From IMG/VR virus record IMGVR_UViG_3300042868_006755, positions 1 through 33,952 of that record: 33,952 bases of DNA. One strand, written 5' to 3'. Below, one piece after another: positions 20,522-29,666 of the stretch; position 1 is the stretch's first letter; every line of letters starts with the position of its first letter. This DNA is from a virus. The notes beneath the pieces are model-generated. The model was not told the DNA's origin. It did no database searches and saw only the letters and a list, made by a program, of their open reading frames with translations. Made by a program: the position numbers and the translations under genes.

Positions 20522-20551
20522 CAAAGATAGTAATTTATTTCAATCCCACAA
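20522..20551 (-). promoter_or_regulatory. Minus-strand promoter P1, just before a terminator
   Basis: TATCTTTG (20522-20529 in plus coordinates) with a TTG exactly 19 nt upstream (20549-20551) is one of the best promoter matches in the window. It overlaps the 3' end of the spanin-like gene. The terminator at 20463-20496 begins about 25 bp downstream, so the predicted RNA is only about 50 nt. Confidence 0.55.
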
Positions 20552-21101
20552 CAAGCCACAAAATAAACATAGCCCCACCAACACACCACGCAGCTATCTT
20601 ACCTCTCTTTTGTTGTTTGGTTTCTTGCTTGCTTACTTTTAATAGTAACGAATCCGTTAGGTTTTCCGCTTTGTAAGTAACTATTAAACTATCCTTAATA
20701 GTTGAAACCGAATCACACAACTGAAAGGCATTAAATAACGCTGCATAACTTGAATCCTTTACATTGATTATCTCATCACATAAAACAAAGACTGTGTCAC
20801 ACTCTTTTGGTAATGTGTGACGCAGTTTTTTAAGCAAAGCTATGTTAGTATTAGTTAATGATATTTCACGCTTTCTAATAGAGTCTTTTGCATTATTCGC
20901 AGTTTGTAGTCTTCGGTTAACTGCTTCTAACTGATTTAGTAGAATAGCCTGCTCAATGCCGAATTGTTTTTTCATTAGTTCCGCTTCTGTTTTGTAGTCA
21001 AATGGAATGGTTTTCGGTTTGTCTTTTGCGCATTTGTTAAGACCGATAATTAGCAGTAAGCATAAGACTGCAAATGTGATAAGTTGGTGTTGTGTTTTCA
21101 T
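20535..21101 (-). CDS. Spanin-like membrane protein, 188 aa
   Basis: The N-terminus has a hydrophobic segment (LITFAVLCLLLIIGLNKC, about residues 7-24), followed by a long charged coiled-coil-like region (about 30-160) and a C-terminal hydrophobic segment (WCVGGAMFILWLVVGLK). Two membrane anchors separated by a coiled coil fit a spanin, which disrupts the outer membrane in the last step of lysis. The Cys at position 24 is not in a clear lipobox. It sits near holin-like and endolysin genes, which supports a lysis role. A tail or membrane-anchor role remains possible. Confidence 0.55.
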   Translation of the reverse strand: MKTQHQLITFAVLCLLLIIGLNKCAKDKPKTIPFDYKTEAELMKKQFGIEQAILLNQLEAVNRRLQTANNAKDSIRKREISLTNTNIALLKKLRHTLPKECDTVFVLCDEIINVKDSSYAALFNAFQLCDSVSTIKDSLIVTYKAENLTDSLLLKVSKQETKQQKRGKIAAWCVGGAMFILWLVVGLK

Positions 21102-21115
21102 ATTGTTATTTTTAG

Positions 21116-21239
21116 TAGTGAGGACAAGATTCGAACTTGTATGATAACTTATGAGCAGTCTTAACGGGTCTTTCGAGGTTACTCTCGTTATCCTTACTAT
21201 TAACCTTTATTCATGCGTCTACCATTCCGCCACCTCACT
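21116..21239 (-). tRNA. Atypical tRNA-like gene, Leu-type arms with extra insert
   Basis: Read on the minus strand, AGTGAGG (21239-21233) pairs with CCTCACT (21123-21117) as a 7-bp acceptor stem. A Leu-type D-arm follows (GCGGAATGGTAGACGC), and a T-arm ACAAG TTCGAAT CTTGT sits before the 3' acceptor strand. Between D-arm and T-stem are 74 nt, where a leucine tRNA usually has about 33-35. I found no 5-bp anticodon stem with a 7-nt loop in that section; GTTAAGA may carry a UAA anticodon. It could be a tRNA with an intron or inserted hairpin, or a decayed tRNA. No CCA is encoded. Confidence 0.55.
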
Positions 21240-21255
21240 ATTTATATTGTTTATT

Positions 21256-21510
21256 TTAGCACCCATCACCATCAATAACCGCAGTTCTTGTAGGTTTTTC
21301 GGTTGTGAATTTGGTTAAGAATTTAGTATTAATCAATAAGAACGTAGCTGCCAATCCACCCCAAAAGGCTTGCTTTAAAGTGATTAATCCTTGCGTTTCT
21401 GCGAGTGCTAAAGATGTCTGAATAAATGGCAGCAACACATAGATTAAGTAGTCTGCAATCTTCTTTAGTTGCTTGTTGTCGGGGCTGCGGTATTTCTGTT
21501 TTAGATTCAT
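21256..21510 (-). CDS. Holin-like membrane protein, 84 aa
   Basis: Two hydrophobic segments at about residues 21-38 (YLIYVLLPFIQTSLALAE) and 44-62 (ITLKQAFWGGLAATFLLIN) are separated by a short loop, with charged ends and a basic N-terminus. This topology fits a two-segment holin, which forms lesions in the inner membrane and releases the endolysin. The gene is in the same minus-strand cluster as the M15 endolysin and the spanin-like protein. Confidence 0.65.
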   Translation of the reverse strand: MNLKQKYRSPDNKQLKKIADYLIYVLLPFIQTSLALAETQGLITLKQAFWGGLAATFLLINTKFLTKFTTEKPTRTAVIDGDGC

Positions 21511-21731: not shown

Positions 21732-21917
21732 TCAATTAATTATTGCCCATTCAAATTTACCTTTAATATTCCATTCAAGCAAAGGCATAATCAAATCTAC
21801 TTTATCTTTCCTGCGAAAATAAACGTGGTCAATCTTTCGACCACCGATGACAATGAAATCTATTTTGACAAAAGTAATTATTTCTTTACCATTAGTGTAG
21901 CGTGTGTTGCGTGTCAT
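21732..21917 (-). CDS. Hypothetical protein, 61 aa
   Basis: A small basic protein with beta-type pattern (FVKIDFIVIGGRKIDHVYF). No family recognised. It overlaps the endolysin gene by 4 nt and lies 1 bp from the following gene, so translation is probably coupled. Confidence 0.5.
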   Translation of the reverse strand: MTRNTRYTNGKEIITFVKIDFIVIGGRKIDHVYFRRKDKVDLIMPLLEWNIKGKFEWAIIN

Positions 21918-22336
21918 ACGATTGTCATTTTCCAGTTAGTTAATTCATAGTGAGGTAAATCCTTGAACGATTTAAAGTTACCACCCCAAGTCAACTTATT
22001 ACTTACCGATTGCAACATCTCCCAAAACTCTTTAAAGTGCTTTGCTGAATAGTCAAGTTCACGTTTGCCAACCTTGACAAAAGCTATGTCAAAGGCTCTG
22101 GATGGGTAGTAGTTATGCGGTGACTGATTTGCTCGGGCTTGGGTTATCTTTGGTCGCTTATGATAATACACTTCCTGCATTGCATTGTTTCTGTATGTGC
22201 ATACAATGATAACGTGAACATCGTTGTGGATAGCGTTAAATTGCGCTTCTGCTTTCTTATATGCGTTAGCAAGTGTTGGGTGTAGGTCCTCGATTAATCT
22301 CGATTCAAATGGCTTGGTTTCATCTTTGGGTTTCAT
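21914..22336 (-). CDS. Endolysin, M15-type D-Ala/L-Ala peptidase, 140 aa
   Basis: This is a peptidoglycan peptidase that cuts the host wall at lysis. Zinc ligands are visible: SPH with His74, AFDIAF with Asp83 and LPHYEL with His129, in the SxHxxxxAxD plus C-terminal His pattern of the M15/VanY-like family (T5-type endolysins). TYR at residues 47-49 and LTWGGNFKSFKD before the last His are also typical. It has no signal sequence, so release depends on a holin. Its first codons are nearly identical to a segment inside the next gene upstream. Confidence 0.8.
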   Translation of the reverse strand: MKPKDETKPFESRLIEDLHPTLANAYKKAEAQFNAIHNDVHVIIVCTYRNNAMQEVYYHKRPKITQARANQSPHNYYPSRAFDIAFVKVGKRELDYSAKHFKEFWEMLQSVSNKLTWGGNFKSFKDLPHYELTNWKMTIV

Positions 22337-26920: not shown

Positions 26921-27202
26921 ATGAAATTCCCATTTGGAAAATTTAAAGGCACTTACATTGATGACATTGAAACAAGTTACCTTATTTATGCACTTGAAAA
27001 TTTTGATATGAAAGGAGATTTGTATAATGCAATAAAATTAGTAATTGCATCAAGGTTTAATATAAATCCACCAACAGTTAAAAATGTAAATTTTAAAGCA
27101 ATTTATTTAACTATGGCTAAAAGGTTTCATCCTGATAAGGGAGGAAGTAATGAAGCAATGCAAGCTATAAACGAATTTTATTATTTGTTATGCAACCAAT
27201 AA
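26921..27202 (+). CDS. DUF3820-like plus J-domain fusion, 93 aa
   Basis: The N-terminal half (MKFPFGKFKGTYIDDIETSY) resembles DUF3820 (FPFGKxKG). The C-terminal half contains FHPDKGGSNEAM with the HPD tripeptide at about residues 70-72, the hallmark of J-domains that stimulate Hsp70 ATPase. The J-domain part is short, with only its central loop and end. It could recruit host DnaK to phage complexes. The gene is visibly more AT-rich than its neighbours and lies behind element E1, suggesting recent acquisition. It overlaps the next gene by 13 nt. Confidence 0.6.
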   Translation: MKFPFGKFKGTYIDDIETSYLIYALENFDMKGDLYNAIKLVIASRFNINPPTVKNVNFKAIYLTMAKRFHPDKGGSNEAMQAINEFYYLLCNQ

Positions 27203-28071
27203 CATTCAACTATTACGAAGCCGACATCAAACGTAGCACTCCACTTGGTAGTGTTACGCTTGAATATCTAATTAACGCTATTAGGACACCTAAAAAAGAT
27301 ATCCGCAATGTATTTGAGGAGATAAGAATTGCAGAGGAAAAAAAAGACATGGCCAAAAAGCAAGCATTGAAGTCAAAACTATACTCATTTACTCCATGTG
27401 TTTATGTTAACGGCCCGCGTAAGTATTCCAACATTCAACATTGGACTGGCTTACTTGTTTTGGATTTTGACCATTTGGAAAGCGATGTGGCAGTTGAATT
27501 CAAAGAGTATTTATTTAACGAATACAAATACATCATAACCGCGTGGCTATCGGCTTCGAGGCATGGTGTTCGCGCACTGGTTAAGATTCCTATTTGCACT
27601 TCGGTAGATGAATTCAAACACTATTATGCAGGCATTGAGCGACACCTCAACTGTTATAATGGTTTTGATACCGCACCAAAGAACTGCATTTTACCGATGT
27701 TTATCAGTTACGATGCCGATATTTTACACAGAAACGATGCGCAAACTTGGTCAACAAAACATATTGAAATAGTTAGGCCTGCAGTAAAACAATACATTAT
27801 TGATGACAAAACTTCAACAATTGAACGTATTATTGCAAAAAAAATAAACGTAATTGTTGACAATGGTCATCCCCAATTGAGGGCCGCAGCTTACTTAATG
27901 GGTGGTTATGTTGGTGCTGGTTATATTGACCAACAACATGCCATTTGTGTAATGGAGCAAATGATTGATGGCAACGGTTATCTATCGCAAAAGGCATCAA
28001 TATACAAACAAACTGCAAAAGAAATGATTAACAAAGGAATTACACAACCAACTTATCTAAACAAAGCATGA
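27190..28071 (+). CDS. Primase-like protein, BT4734/VirE_N family, 293 aa
   Basis: The first 200 residues have the pattern of the BT4734/VirE N-terminal domain linked to archaeo-eukaryotic primases: LLVLDFDHL with a DxD pair (about residues 92-100), SASRHGVRALVKI (about 121-133) and the later FISYDADI (about 174-181). The C-terminal part is helical. It is followed directly by a helicase, giving a split primase-helicase pair. The activity is inferred from family and context. It overlaps the helicase by 4 nt. Confidence 0.65.
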   Translation: MQPITFNYYEADIKRSTPLGSVTLEYLINAIRTPKKDIRNVFEEIRIAEEKKDMAKKQALKSKLYSFTPCVYVNGPRKYSNIQHWTGLLVLDFDHLESDVAVEFKEYLFNEYKYIITAWLSASRHGVRALVKIPICTSVDEFKHYYAGIERHLNCYNGFDTAPKNCILPMFISYDADILHRNDAQTWSTKHIEIVRPAVKQYIIDDKTSTIERIIAKKINVIVDNGHPQLRAAAYLMGGYVGAGYIDQQHAICVMEQMIDGNGYLSQKASIYKQTAKEMINKGITQPTYLNKA

Positions 28072-29666
28072 GCGACAAATTTAAAAAACCTGAATCAAAC
28101 CCGCTTTTAAACGCGGTGGATTACTTCAATTTCTTTGGCTCATTTGTGTCAATATTTGAGGGCATAAAACAATGCAACGTAAAATCAGAAACGGAAGTAT
28201 GTTTACTTAACCCCGATAGTTTAGATCCGCAGGAACTTAACAAACCGACTTTTATTCTCAATAAGTTAAACACTATTGATGTGATGAAAAAAAATAGTTA
28301 TCGACTTGGTGTTGGGGCCAAGGTTTCTAAATTTATGGTTTTAGCCGCAGTTAAATTCCAAGGCGATTCATTTGCTGCAATGTCTTATGTTAACTTTGAA
28401 ATAATGAAATCCGATATACCTTATATTAGGGTGGGAACTGATTACTTTAAAGTTATAGCCAAAAAAGACAGATACAAATCTGAAAACACACTTCTTAAAC
28501 CTTGGAAAAAAGATGAAATAAAGCAGGACCATGGCAAACAATTACTTGGAATGATTTACAAGTTTGATGACTTTACTATTTACCCCGACAATGTCGAATA
28601 CACTCCAGTGCTTAACAACTGTTATAACCTTTACGCAAAGTTTTCGCATAAATTCGTTATTGATGAGGTTAACCAAAACGATATACCCGTAACTATGGGA
28701 TTGATACACCACATTTTTGGTGAGCAATGGGAGCTTGGTTTAAAGTATATGAAAATACTTTACGAATATCCGCGCCAAATATTGCCAGTGTTGGCCCTTG
28801 TTTCTACTGAGCGCGAAACAGGTAAAACAACTTTCTTAAATTGGATTCAAATGTTGTTTGGAGAAAATACTACCTTAATCAATCCAAGTGACCTTACAAG
28901 TAACTTTAATGATGCTTACGCAACAAAAAACATTATTATGATTGATGAAACGACCATCGATAAACAACACGCAATTGAAAAGTTAAAATCAATAGCAACT
29001 GCCAAAACAATGTCGGTTTCGCAAAAGTTTGTTAGCCATTATAGTGTGCCATTTTTTGGCAAAGTTATTTTTTGCACCAATAAAGAATCTGACTTTATGC
29101 GAATTGATGAAGAGGAAATTCGCTTTTGGGTGCGCAAAATTAAACTTATTAAAGGCAAAAAGAATACTAACATTGAAAACGATTTGTTTAATGAGATACC
29201 AAGGTTTCTTAAATATCTTATACAACTTCCTGCAATAGACTTTAGCAAATCGCGTATGGTTTTTACCAAAGATGAAATATTAACCGAATCATTGCAAGTT
29301 GTTATGGAGGAAAGCAAAGCTTGGATGCGTAAAGAAATTAAAGAGTTATTTCAGGATTATTTTGATAATAATTCTGGTATTGAATTTATTGAAGTTACTG
29401 CAAAAGATATTAAAGATCGTTGGTTTACTACTAATAATAATGCTCAAATTAATTATATTAGAAAAGTGTTAAAGGAGGAAATGAAACTTATACCATCAGA
29501 ATTGAAACGATATAAGGTTTGGCCCGATTTAGGATTTAACGAAAGAGTTGGGCAAGTGTTTACCTTTTATAATCATAACATGCCTAAAAACCAATCAGTT
29601 AATAACAATAAAGATTGTGTTGATGACCCTAATGATGAAATGCCTAAATTTGCATTTGTAAAATAA
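28068..29666 (+). CDS. Replicative primase-helicase, SF3-like ATPase, 532 aa
   Basis: The ATPase core is visible: ERETGKTT with the Walker A GKT (about residues 248-255), IIMIDE as Walker B (289-294) and later FGKVIFCTNKES, matching the conserved Asn sensor of superfamily 3 (D5/VirE-type) helicases. The N-terminal 200 residues form a separate alpha/beta domain. It unwinds DNA at the phage origin, likely the repeat region just downstream. The C-terminal part contains Asn-rich, less conserved sequence. Confidence 0.75.
   Translation: MSDKFKKPESNPLLNAVDYFNFFGSFVSIFEGIKQCNVKSETEVCLLNPDSLDPQELNKPTFILNKLNTIDVMKKNSYRLGVGAKVSKFMVLAAVKFQGDSFAAMSYVNFEIMKSDIPYIRVGTDYFKVIAKKDRYKSENTLLKPWKKDEIKQDHGKQLLGMIYKFDDFTIYPDNVEYTPVLNNCYNLYAKFSHKFVIDEVNQNDIPVTMGLIHHIFGEQWELGLKYMKILYEYPRQILPVLALVSTERETGKTTFLNWIQMLFGENTTLINPSDLTSNFNDAYATKNIIMIDETTIDKQHAIEKLKSIATAKTMSVSQKFVSHYSVPFFGKVIFCTNKESDFMRIDEEEIRFWVRKIKLIKGKKNTNIENDLFNEIPRFLKYLIQLPAIDFSKSRMVFTKDEILTESLQVVMEESKAWMRKEIKELFQDYFDNNSGIEFIEVTAKDIKDRWFTTNNNAQINYIRKVLKEEMKLIPSELKRYKVWPDLGFNERVGQVFTFYNHNMPKNQSVNNNKDCVDDPNDEMPKFAFVK

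Follow-up and report, generated by a model that had tools for sequence, protein, structure and literature searches.

The window, by which we mean the whole 33,952-nt stretch of viral DNA analysed here (IMG/VR record IMGVR_UViG_3300042868_006755), carries on its minus strand a tRNA-like gene of 124 nt (21116..21239), with its 5′ end at 21239, a discriminator A at 21116 and no encoded CCA. A first-pass annotation had placed the gene here without giving a strand, and had described an intact 7-bp acceptor stem with a Leu-like D-arm and a T-arm, all of which was borne out. The acceptor stem is formed by AGTGAGG (21233..21239) and CCTCACT (21117..21123) with 7/7 pairs, the D-arm GCG-GAATGGTAGA-CGC is of the Leu type (21215..21230, 3/3 pairs; D-arm sequence TGGCGGAATGGTAGACGC), and the T-arm reads ACAAG-TTCGAAT-CTTGT (21124..21140, 5/5 pairs). 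Acceptor stem, D-arm and T-arm stand in tRNA geometry, and in a local search the Rfam tRNA model scored 38.7 bits on 21239..21116, with a family cut-off of 29. Between the D- and T-arms lie 74 nt (21141..21214) in which the first-pass annotation had seen no normal anticodon arm, and this also held: the segment is a pseudoknotted RNA domain that replaces the anticodon and variable arms, and default ARAGORN found neither a tRNA nor a tmRNA gene in the window, nor an anticodon arm of 5 bp with a 7-nt loop in this gene. A model that folds the complete 124 nt as a standard tRNA had been named as possible counter-evidence; the Rfam match is not of that kind, since it bridges the insert and contains no full anticodon arm. 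At the gathering threshold Rfam gave no entry over the whole window, and the tmRNA family was matched neither there nor in the local searches. With introns allowed, ARAGORN proposed a tRNA-Leu(AAG) with a 43-nt intron, a proposal weighed below.

The gene begins 16 nt past the stop codon of an 84-aa ORF (21256..21510, minus strand), which flanks the accessory slot described below on its upstream side, and ends 14 nt ahead of the ATG of a 188-aa ORF (20535..21101, minus strand); neither ORF matched PHROG or Pfam. The ORF at 21914-22336 is endolysin-like, with a match to Peptidase_M15_4. Within the 33,952-base record, a query of 181 bases around the gene matched solely at its own place, and promoter-like sites near the gene were not in excess (13 found, 15.4 expected in shuffles). 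A terminase search returned 42 records, 35 of them Vibrio phages, with 21.9% identity for the best of the 12 matches listed. Elsewhere in the window, a plus-strand ORF with a BT4734-like N-terminal domain (PF08800) occupies 27190-28071, just ahead of an ORF that resembles a DNA primase (28068-29666).

The insert is built from four pairings. P1 joins GGTTA (21201..21205) to TAACC (21177-21181) with 5/5 pairs, P2 joins GATAAC (21187..21192) to GTTATC (21143..21148), which ends 2 nt ahead of the T-arm, with 6/6 pairs, P3 joins GAG (21182..21184) to the CTC at 21153..21155 inside a conserved GCTSNTAR with 3/3 pairs, and in P0 the U at 21213 pairs with the A at 21194. Along the minus strand the order is P0 P1 P0′ P2 P3 P1′ .. 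P3′ P2′, so that P1 crosses P0, P2 and P3 and the whole forms a compact pseudoknot. Alignment further marks the conserved unpaired segment GAATAAA (21206..21212) and the segment TCGAAAGACCC (21166..21176), the conservation of the latter being partly set by the search pattern for the core. The first-pass annotation had suggested a tRNA mimic with an inserted folded segment, which these features support, and had listed three complementarities. Two of them, GGTTA/TAACC and GATAAC/GTTATC, are retained and interlock as a pseudoknot, whereas the third, CGAG/CTCG, was read as a local hairpin that is probably not real, since the GAG at 21184-21182 fits the distant CTC at 21155-21153 and covaries with it between copies. 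Rfam 15 held no family for the insert or its core in the loci searched, and a local search of 20900-21500 at E ≤ 10 returned only tRNA, Dicty_Class_I_RNA and snR75, and no ribozyme.

A search pattern for the core, GGTTAAYAGTA..AGTAACCYYGAAANACCC, was derived from the window insert and its BLAST matches, and it matched 86 stretches of viral contigs, many of them outside any tRNA. The window insert belongs to the resulting core, GGTTAAYAGTA..AGTAACC..GAAANACCC..GCTSNTAR, with the P0 U-A pair, P1 5/5, P2 6/6, P3 3/3 and the unpaired segments all present. One count found 63 unique cores, with a GCT[CG] partner present in 52; another count, made with a slightly different pattern, gave 52 distinct cores. 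In this core a variable segment 2 bases past AGTA pairs with a segment behind the conserved GCTSNTAR, which is P2. At a fixed offset P2 is complete (6/6) in 36/52 distinct cores, one of which (L140) looks like a chance match, and the partner lies downstream in 28 of the 36 and upstream in 8, the latter being circularly permuted. The other 16/52 cores lack 6/6 P2 pairs at this offset; L136 and L137 pair P2 at another offset. When partners were swapped between 19 families as a control, P2 reached 6/6 in only 9/342 combinations. The inner P0 pair is standard in 51/52 cores with five pair types, and the next pair outward, which is absent from the window, in 34/52. The outer base of P3 is G-C in 31, C-G in 4 and other in 1 of the 36 cores, and G-C in 40, C-G in 11 and other in 1 of 52 under a second pattern, which restricts the 3′ side to C or G. 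The P0, P2 and P3 helices covary across 52 distinct cores. P1 is GGTTA/TAACC in 51/52 distinct cores and GGTTT/AAACC in the remaining one, a constancy that the search pattern largely fixes and that is weak evidence.

For copies embedded in a tRNA-like gene, the arrangement exceeds chance. Among 29 distinct embedded copies of the insert, 26 have an acceptor stem of 7/7 pairs and a T-stem of at least 4/5 pairs, and three (L012, L029 and L157) have a disturbed 3′ arm. The acceptor stem varies in a compensatory manner among relatives (AGTCAGG/CCTGACT, AGTAGAG/CTCTATT). We aligned 23 full-length relatives, drawn from 25 copies preselected for at least 6 acceptor and at least 4 T-stem pairs (a selection that excludes the three disturbed copies) by omitting L170 and L186, which have D-loop insertions. 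In this alignment, 667/667 cells of the proposed structure pair, the covariation score was reached by 0/500 shuffles, and sliding the partner by 1-3 columns left only 28-44% of cells paired; the further pair types showed no excess over shuffles (334/500). The double changes lie in the acceptor and T-stem, and because P1, P3 and the D-stem are invariant here and P2 changes on one side only, the covariation of this alignment belongs to the scaffold. The two omitted copies (L170 227-382 and L186 12468-12617) carry the same payload together with extra D-loop sequence that looks hairpin-like by eye.

Relatives of this phage were found through the flanking ORFs, and 59 of 68 loci were classified; a second set of 65 loci is unclassified. 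The nine loci left out of the count (L338 and L345-L352) are truncated or have other sequence downstream, and our scanner found no tRNA-like gene in them. In 25 of the 59 relatives, whose contigs were not dereplicated, the slot is empty (13-16 nt). A small ORF fills it in 16, a short spacer in 5 and a tRNA-like gene in 10, and the 188-aa gene is missing downstream of the slot in 3. Eight of the ten tRNA-like genes carry the window payload and two carry another. One of the eight (L288) has AGTCAGG for AGTGAGG, with the opposite strand changed to match, and the two with the other payload (L305 and L312, identical over the slot) combine the same scaffold with an unrelated payload, to which an ORF and one more tRNA-like gene are added. 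The slot therefore looks like accessory cargo with exchangeable contents and not like random decay. Two slot ORFs were checked, one of which corresponds to phrog_21441 (unknown function) and the other has no match; the small ORF in the slot of L289 (1767-2060) is without a PHROG match.

The payload core is also found outside tRNA-like genes. At E ≤ 1, BLAST with the core copy of phage RaK2 retrieved 60 phage records, of which the weakest are unconfirmed, and 0 plasmids, and phages of Cellulophaga, Escherichia, Klebsiella, Proteus, Erwinia and Pectobacterium carry the core. Two tRNAs flank it in phages mogra, G2469, PL1 and pEp_SNUABM_01: in the E. coli Mosigvirus phages mogra and G2469 these are tRNA-Met and tRNA-Arg, in a Proteus Novosibvirus the neighbours are tRNA-Glu and tRNA-Ile, and in an Erwinia Henunavirus tRNA-Gly and tRNA-Glu. 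In Cellulophaga phages the core is situated between genes or at gene ends, and in the Klebsiella Mydovirus VLCpiM5b (L125) a permuted core (match 601-655) lies within a predicted group I intron (459-763). That intron sits between two ORFs annotated as DNA polymerase.

The scaffold is likewise not confined to the window payload. A first scan of IMG/VR for a Leu D-arm and a T-loop 58-88 nt apart matched at least 120 contig stretches, and a second scan in which the D-arm was not required also gave at least 120; the strict D-arm pattern fits 57/106 scaffold RNAs of the second scan, the rest having variant, reduced or missing D-arms. Our own scanner detected 196 long tRNA-like genes in 139 loci, 159 of them unique and 103 of these with the acceptor strand AGTCAGG. 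In seven of the 159 the insert contains a T-loop motif, so that two genes may have been taken for one, as is the case at least for L049 with its 102-nt middle; without these seven, 152 unique long tRNA-like genes remain, 100 with AGTCAGG, and this cleaned set still includes a few entries that have AT-rich acceptors and lack a Leu D-arm. An anticodon-like stem (at least 4/5 pairs, 7-nt loop) was present in 22/150 cleaned inserts, which is below the rate in shuffled inserts (18.9%), and the same test was positive for 156/159 normal tRNAs of these loci. The 3′ half CAGGTTCGAATCCTGTCCTGACTAC (up to 3 mismatches) occurs in 28/30 viral records, with up to 13 copies per record, all on one strand within each record and with 0 matches for the reversed-pattern control; the 30 records were picked for known copies or closeness to the window. 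In such arrays, scaffold RNAs alternate with normal tRNAs. Since one slot holds unrelated payloads in relatives and the array RNAs share one scaffold, scaffold and payload are separable. The strict AGTCAGG pattern was found in 2 bacterial contigs among 84,980 species genomes, and BLAST with one AGTCAGG scaffold RNA (L016) retrieved 68 records of cultured phages, whose matches were short and weak, the best of those listed having E 0.03.

Several other RNAs were noticed in or near such loci. A GOLLD RNA (L216 2366-2783, G012; 262 bits) directly precedes a tRNA and an AGTCAGG scaffold RNA of an array, and a freshwater-1 RNA just under its cut-off (70 versus 72 bits) lies inside another scaffold array (L218 3973-4034). 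Cronobacter phage LPCS28 (L128) has two differing tRNA-like genes at 292-412 and 422-534, with inserts of about 50 nt and a common segment, CGCAAACTGAYAAGTTTGTATTCAGCA; neither gene is annotated in the phage record. Further tRNA-like genes with long inserts are located at L129 598-718, 774-891 and 897-1023 and at L131 769-887, the sources being a human gut phage record and Salicola phage SCTP-2.

By sequence, the 150 cleaned inserts form 107 clusters (before cleaning, 157 inserts formed 114). Compared with dinucleotide shuffles, the best pair of crossing helices in these 107 clusters was stronger, with a mean z of -0.59 (t-test p 5e-8), and 17/107 clusters reached p ≤ 0.05 singly; nested pairs were likewise enriched (mean z -0.39). 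The values before cleaning were -0.64 for crossing pairs, with 25/114 clusters at p ≤ 0.05, and -0.46 for nested pairs. In 59 held-out clusters the crossing mean z was -0.56 (p 1.8e-4), with 14/59 at p ≤ 0.05, and the nested mean z -0.33. A preference of the second helix for the position beside the T-arm was not significant in held-out inserts (26/52 versus 1630/3934 in shuffles). Compensatory helices were observed in 8/22 pairs of related inserts outside the family of the window payload, and L089 and L092 differ by three double changes within one 8-bp helix. Pseudoknots are thus common in the scaffold class, though the proof does not extend to all payloads.

The first-pass annotation had considered a very small intron and decay besides mimicry, and both can be judged against these data. 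A tRNA-Leu with a tiny intron in its anticodon loop, spliced to a decoding tRNA, agrees with the Leu-type D-arm and is what the intron option of ARAGORN returned, but over the 23 relatives no more than 67.8% of the cells in the proposed anticodon stem are paired, one pair being formed in 0/23 and another in 11/23, without covariation, and on this count the reading fails. In addition, the CTC of the proposed 3′ exon pairs with GAG as P3, and the insert occurs free-standing and permuted elsewhere, outside tRNAs; we consider such an intron-bearing tRNA very improbable. A decaying tRNA gene could explain the missing anticodon arm, the unencoded CCA, the presence of the gene in a minority of relatives (10/59) and the disturbed 3′ arm in the three embedded copies, which do speak for it. 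Against it stand the intact arms of the other 26 copies with their compensatory changes in acceptor and T-stem, the wholesale exchange of payloads between intact arms in a syntenic slot, the conservation of the payload core in unrelated phages and the multiplication of the 3′ half in single records. Simple decay fails because of the compensatory changes and the slot exchange, and as a reading it is largely refuted and scarcely credible.

Three further readings accept the structure and assign it another role. A cis-acting element, in which the tRNA-like structure is a leader or a processing site and determines the 5′ end or the translation of the next gene, would fit the start of the 188-aa gene 14 nt downstream and the greater frequency of ORF starts within 30 nt downstream of long tRNA-like genes (46/141) than of normal tRNAs (26/144). 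This enrichment is weak, however, and the role cannot be general: 95/141 copies lack an ORF start in this range, the RNAs form arrays, the same two flanking genes are only 13-16 nt apart in 25/59 relatives, and for a processing signal a conserved pseudoknot payload would be superfluous. We regard the cis reading as unlikely. About as unlikely in our estimate is a payload that acts as a small self-cleaving or otherwise catalytic RNA on tRNA genes, comparable to theta ribozymes, for which the compact multi-pseudoknot fold, the conserved unpaired segments, the circular permutants and the location next to phage tRNAs all argue; yet no ribozyme was among the local Rfam matches at E ≤ 10, the helix order differs from that of HDV-like ribozymes, and cleavage within the scaffold would split the tRNA-like RNA. 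A mobile DNA element that has no RNA function and is tolerated in the loops of RNA genes is suggested by its sites, which are tRNA-like genes, positions between tRNAs and the predicted group I intron, and by the patchy presence in the slot. Base-pair covariation at the RNA level contradicts it, as does circular permutation that preserves pairing and not sequence order, and we give it a low probability.

Among known systems, the nearest precedents are the species 1 (rnaC) and species 2 (rnaD) RNAs of phage T4. They are stable phage RNAs in a tRNA operon, and PMC9697503 refers to them as late RNAs with yet unknown functions. The 3′ end of rnaC resembles our scaffold in its T-arm, CCGGG-TTCGAAT-CCCGG, after which come an acceptor-like 3′ strand and TA, but our scanner finds no tRNA-like gene with acceptor and D-arm in rnaC, so that its domain order differs from that of the window gene; moreover, the window payload core is not visible by eye in rnaC or rnaD, and both are single genes and not arrays. 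We therefore rejected rnaC and rnaD as homologues, the T-arm being common to rnaC and the D-arm scaffold not being found. By eye, the 5′ end of rnaC (L213, complement of 1409-1547), whose T-arm is perfect, shows only a partial acceptor.

Theta ribozymes are small pseudoknotted HDV-like phage RNAs that adjoin tRNAs and cleave (PMC10879173). They lie beside a tRNA, whereas the window knot lies inside a tRNA scaffold, and no HDV-like Rfam family matched the window insert in the local search at E ≤ 10. Group I introns in tRNA genes likewise interrupt a tRNA with an inserted RNA; the window insert has 74 nt, and RF00028 had no match in the window. GOLLD RNA (RF02032) is also a structured RNA of phage tRNA clusters, but it is far larger and, in the instance seen here, not tRNA-scaffolded. 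The bacterial Y RNA YrlA (RF02553) is a ncRNA with a tRNA-like domain that mimics tRNA; it had no match in 20900-21500 at E ≤ 10, and in seven array loci gave one sub-threshold match of 26.9 bits, with a cut-off of 69. The ToxI RNAs of type III toxin-antitoxin systems are likewise small pseudoknot RNAs where phage and host meet, and they are repeated in tandem beside a toxin gene. Here one payload sits in a tRNA scaffold, the flanking ORFs match neither Pfam nor PHROG, and the local Rfam search gave no match to such an RNA. In the laboratory tRNA scaffold, foreign RNA replaces the anticodon arm for processing and stability; that construct is artificial, and the case in the window is apparently a natural one. 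Broadly, we class the window RNA with the tRNA-mimicking stable RNAs, and it shares the defining features of none of the known families tested. No published description of the scaffold class was found in openly licensed literature, which is weak evidence of absence as subscription journals and most preprints were outside its scope.

In our preferred explanation, the gene encodes an accessory phage ncRNA in which a tRNA scaffold would serve processing and stability and a swappable pseudoknot would act in trans, and we put the probability of this reading at roughly 0.6. Nearly all of the doubt concerns function, and the cleaned counts left the figure unchanged. By analogy with tRNA maturation, RNase P and the enzymes that process tRNA 3′ ends would cut the tRNA-like RNA from the operon transcript, and the tRNA-like ends may then protect it, so that the scaffold would be a device for processing, stability and display. 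Free-standing cores could be released by the processing of the tRNAs that flank them. The data show the fold and the class of the RNA, and its function and target are what we infer: acting in trans, the payload may bind a host defence protein or a host component that is conserved. That an accessory slot exchanges its payloads so fast suggests an arms race. More tentatively, as a possibility that we think less likely than not, phages could use the tRNA body as a natural display scaffold, a conserved frame of acceptor, T-arm and, in most cases, D-arm that takes in unrelated pseudoknot RNAs, often in arrays, so that every phage would have a set of stable RNAs of its own. These would work in trans as inhibitors or decoys, aimed at host defence or at host factors that are conserved, and the window payload would be one widely shared member, which T4-like, T5-like and jumbo phages also have as a free RNA with tRNAs on either side.

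Standard tRNA finding misses genes of this kind, as the empty default ARAGORN result for the window illustrates, and a large class of phage ncRNAs may therefore be unannotated. The copy between tRNA-Met and tRNA-Arg in mogra, whose recorded host is E. coli K-12 MG1655, makes the function directly testable. The finding also bears on what the T4 small RNAs C and D do. Should the payloads be trans-acting inhibitors, they would do with RNA, on a modular chassis, what anti-defence proteins do.
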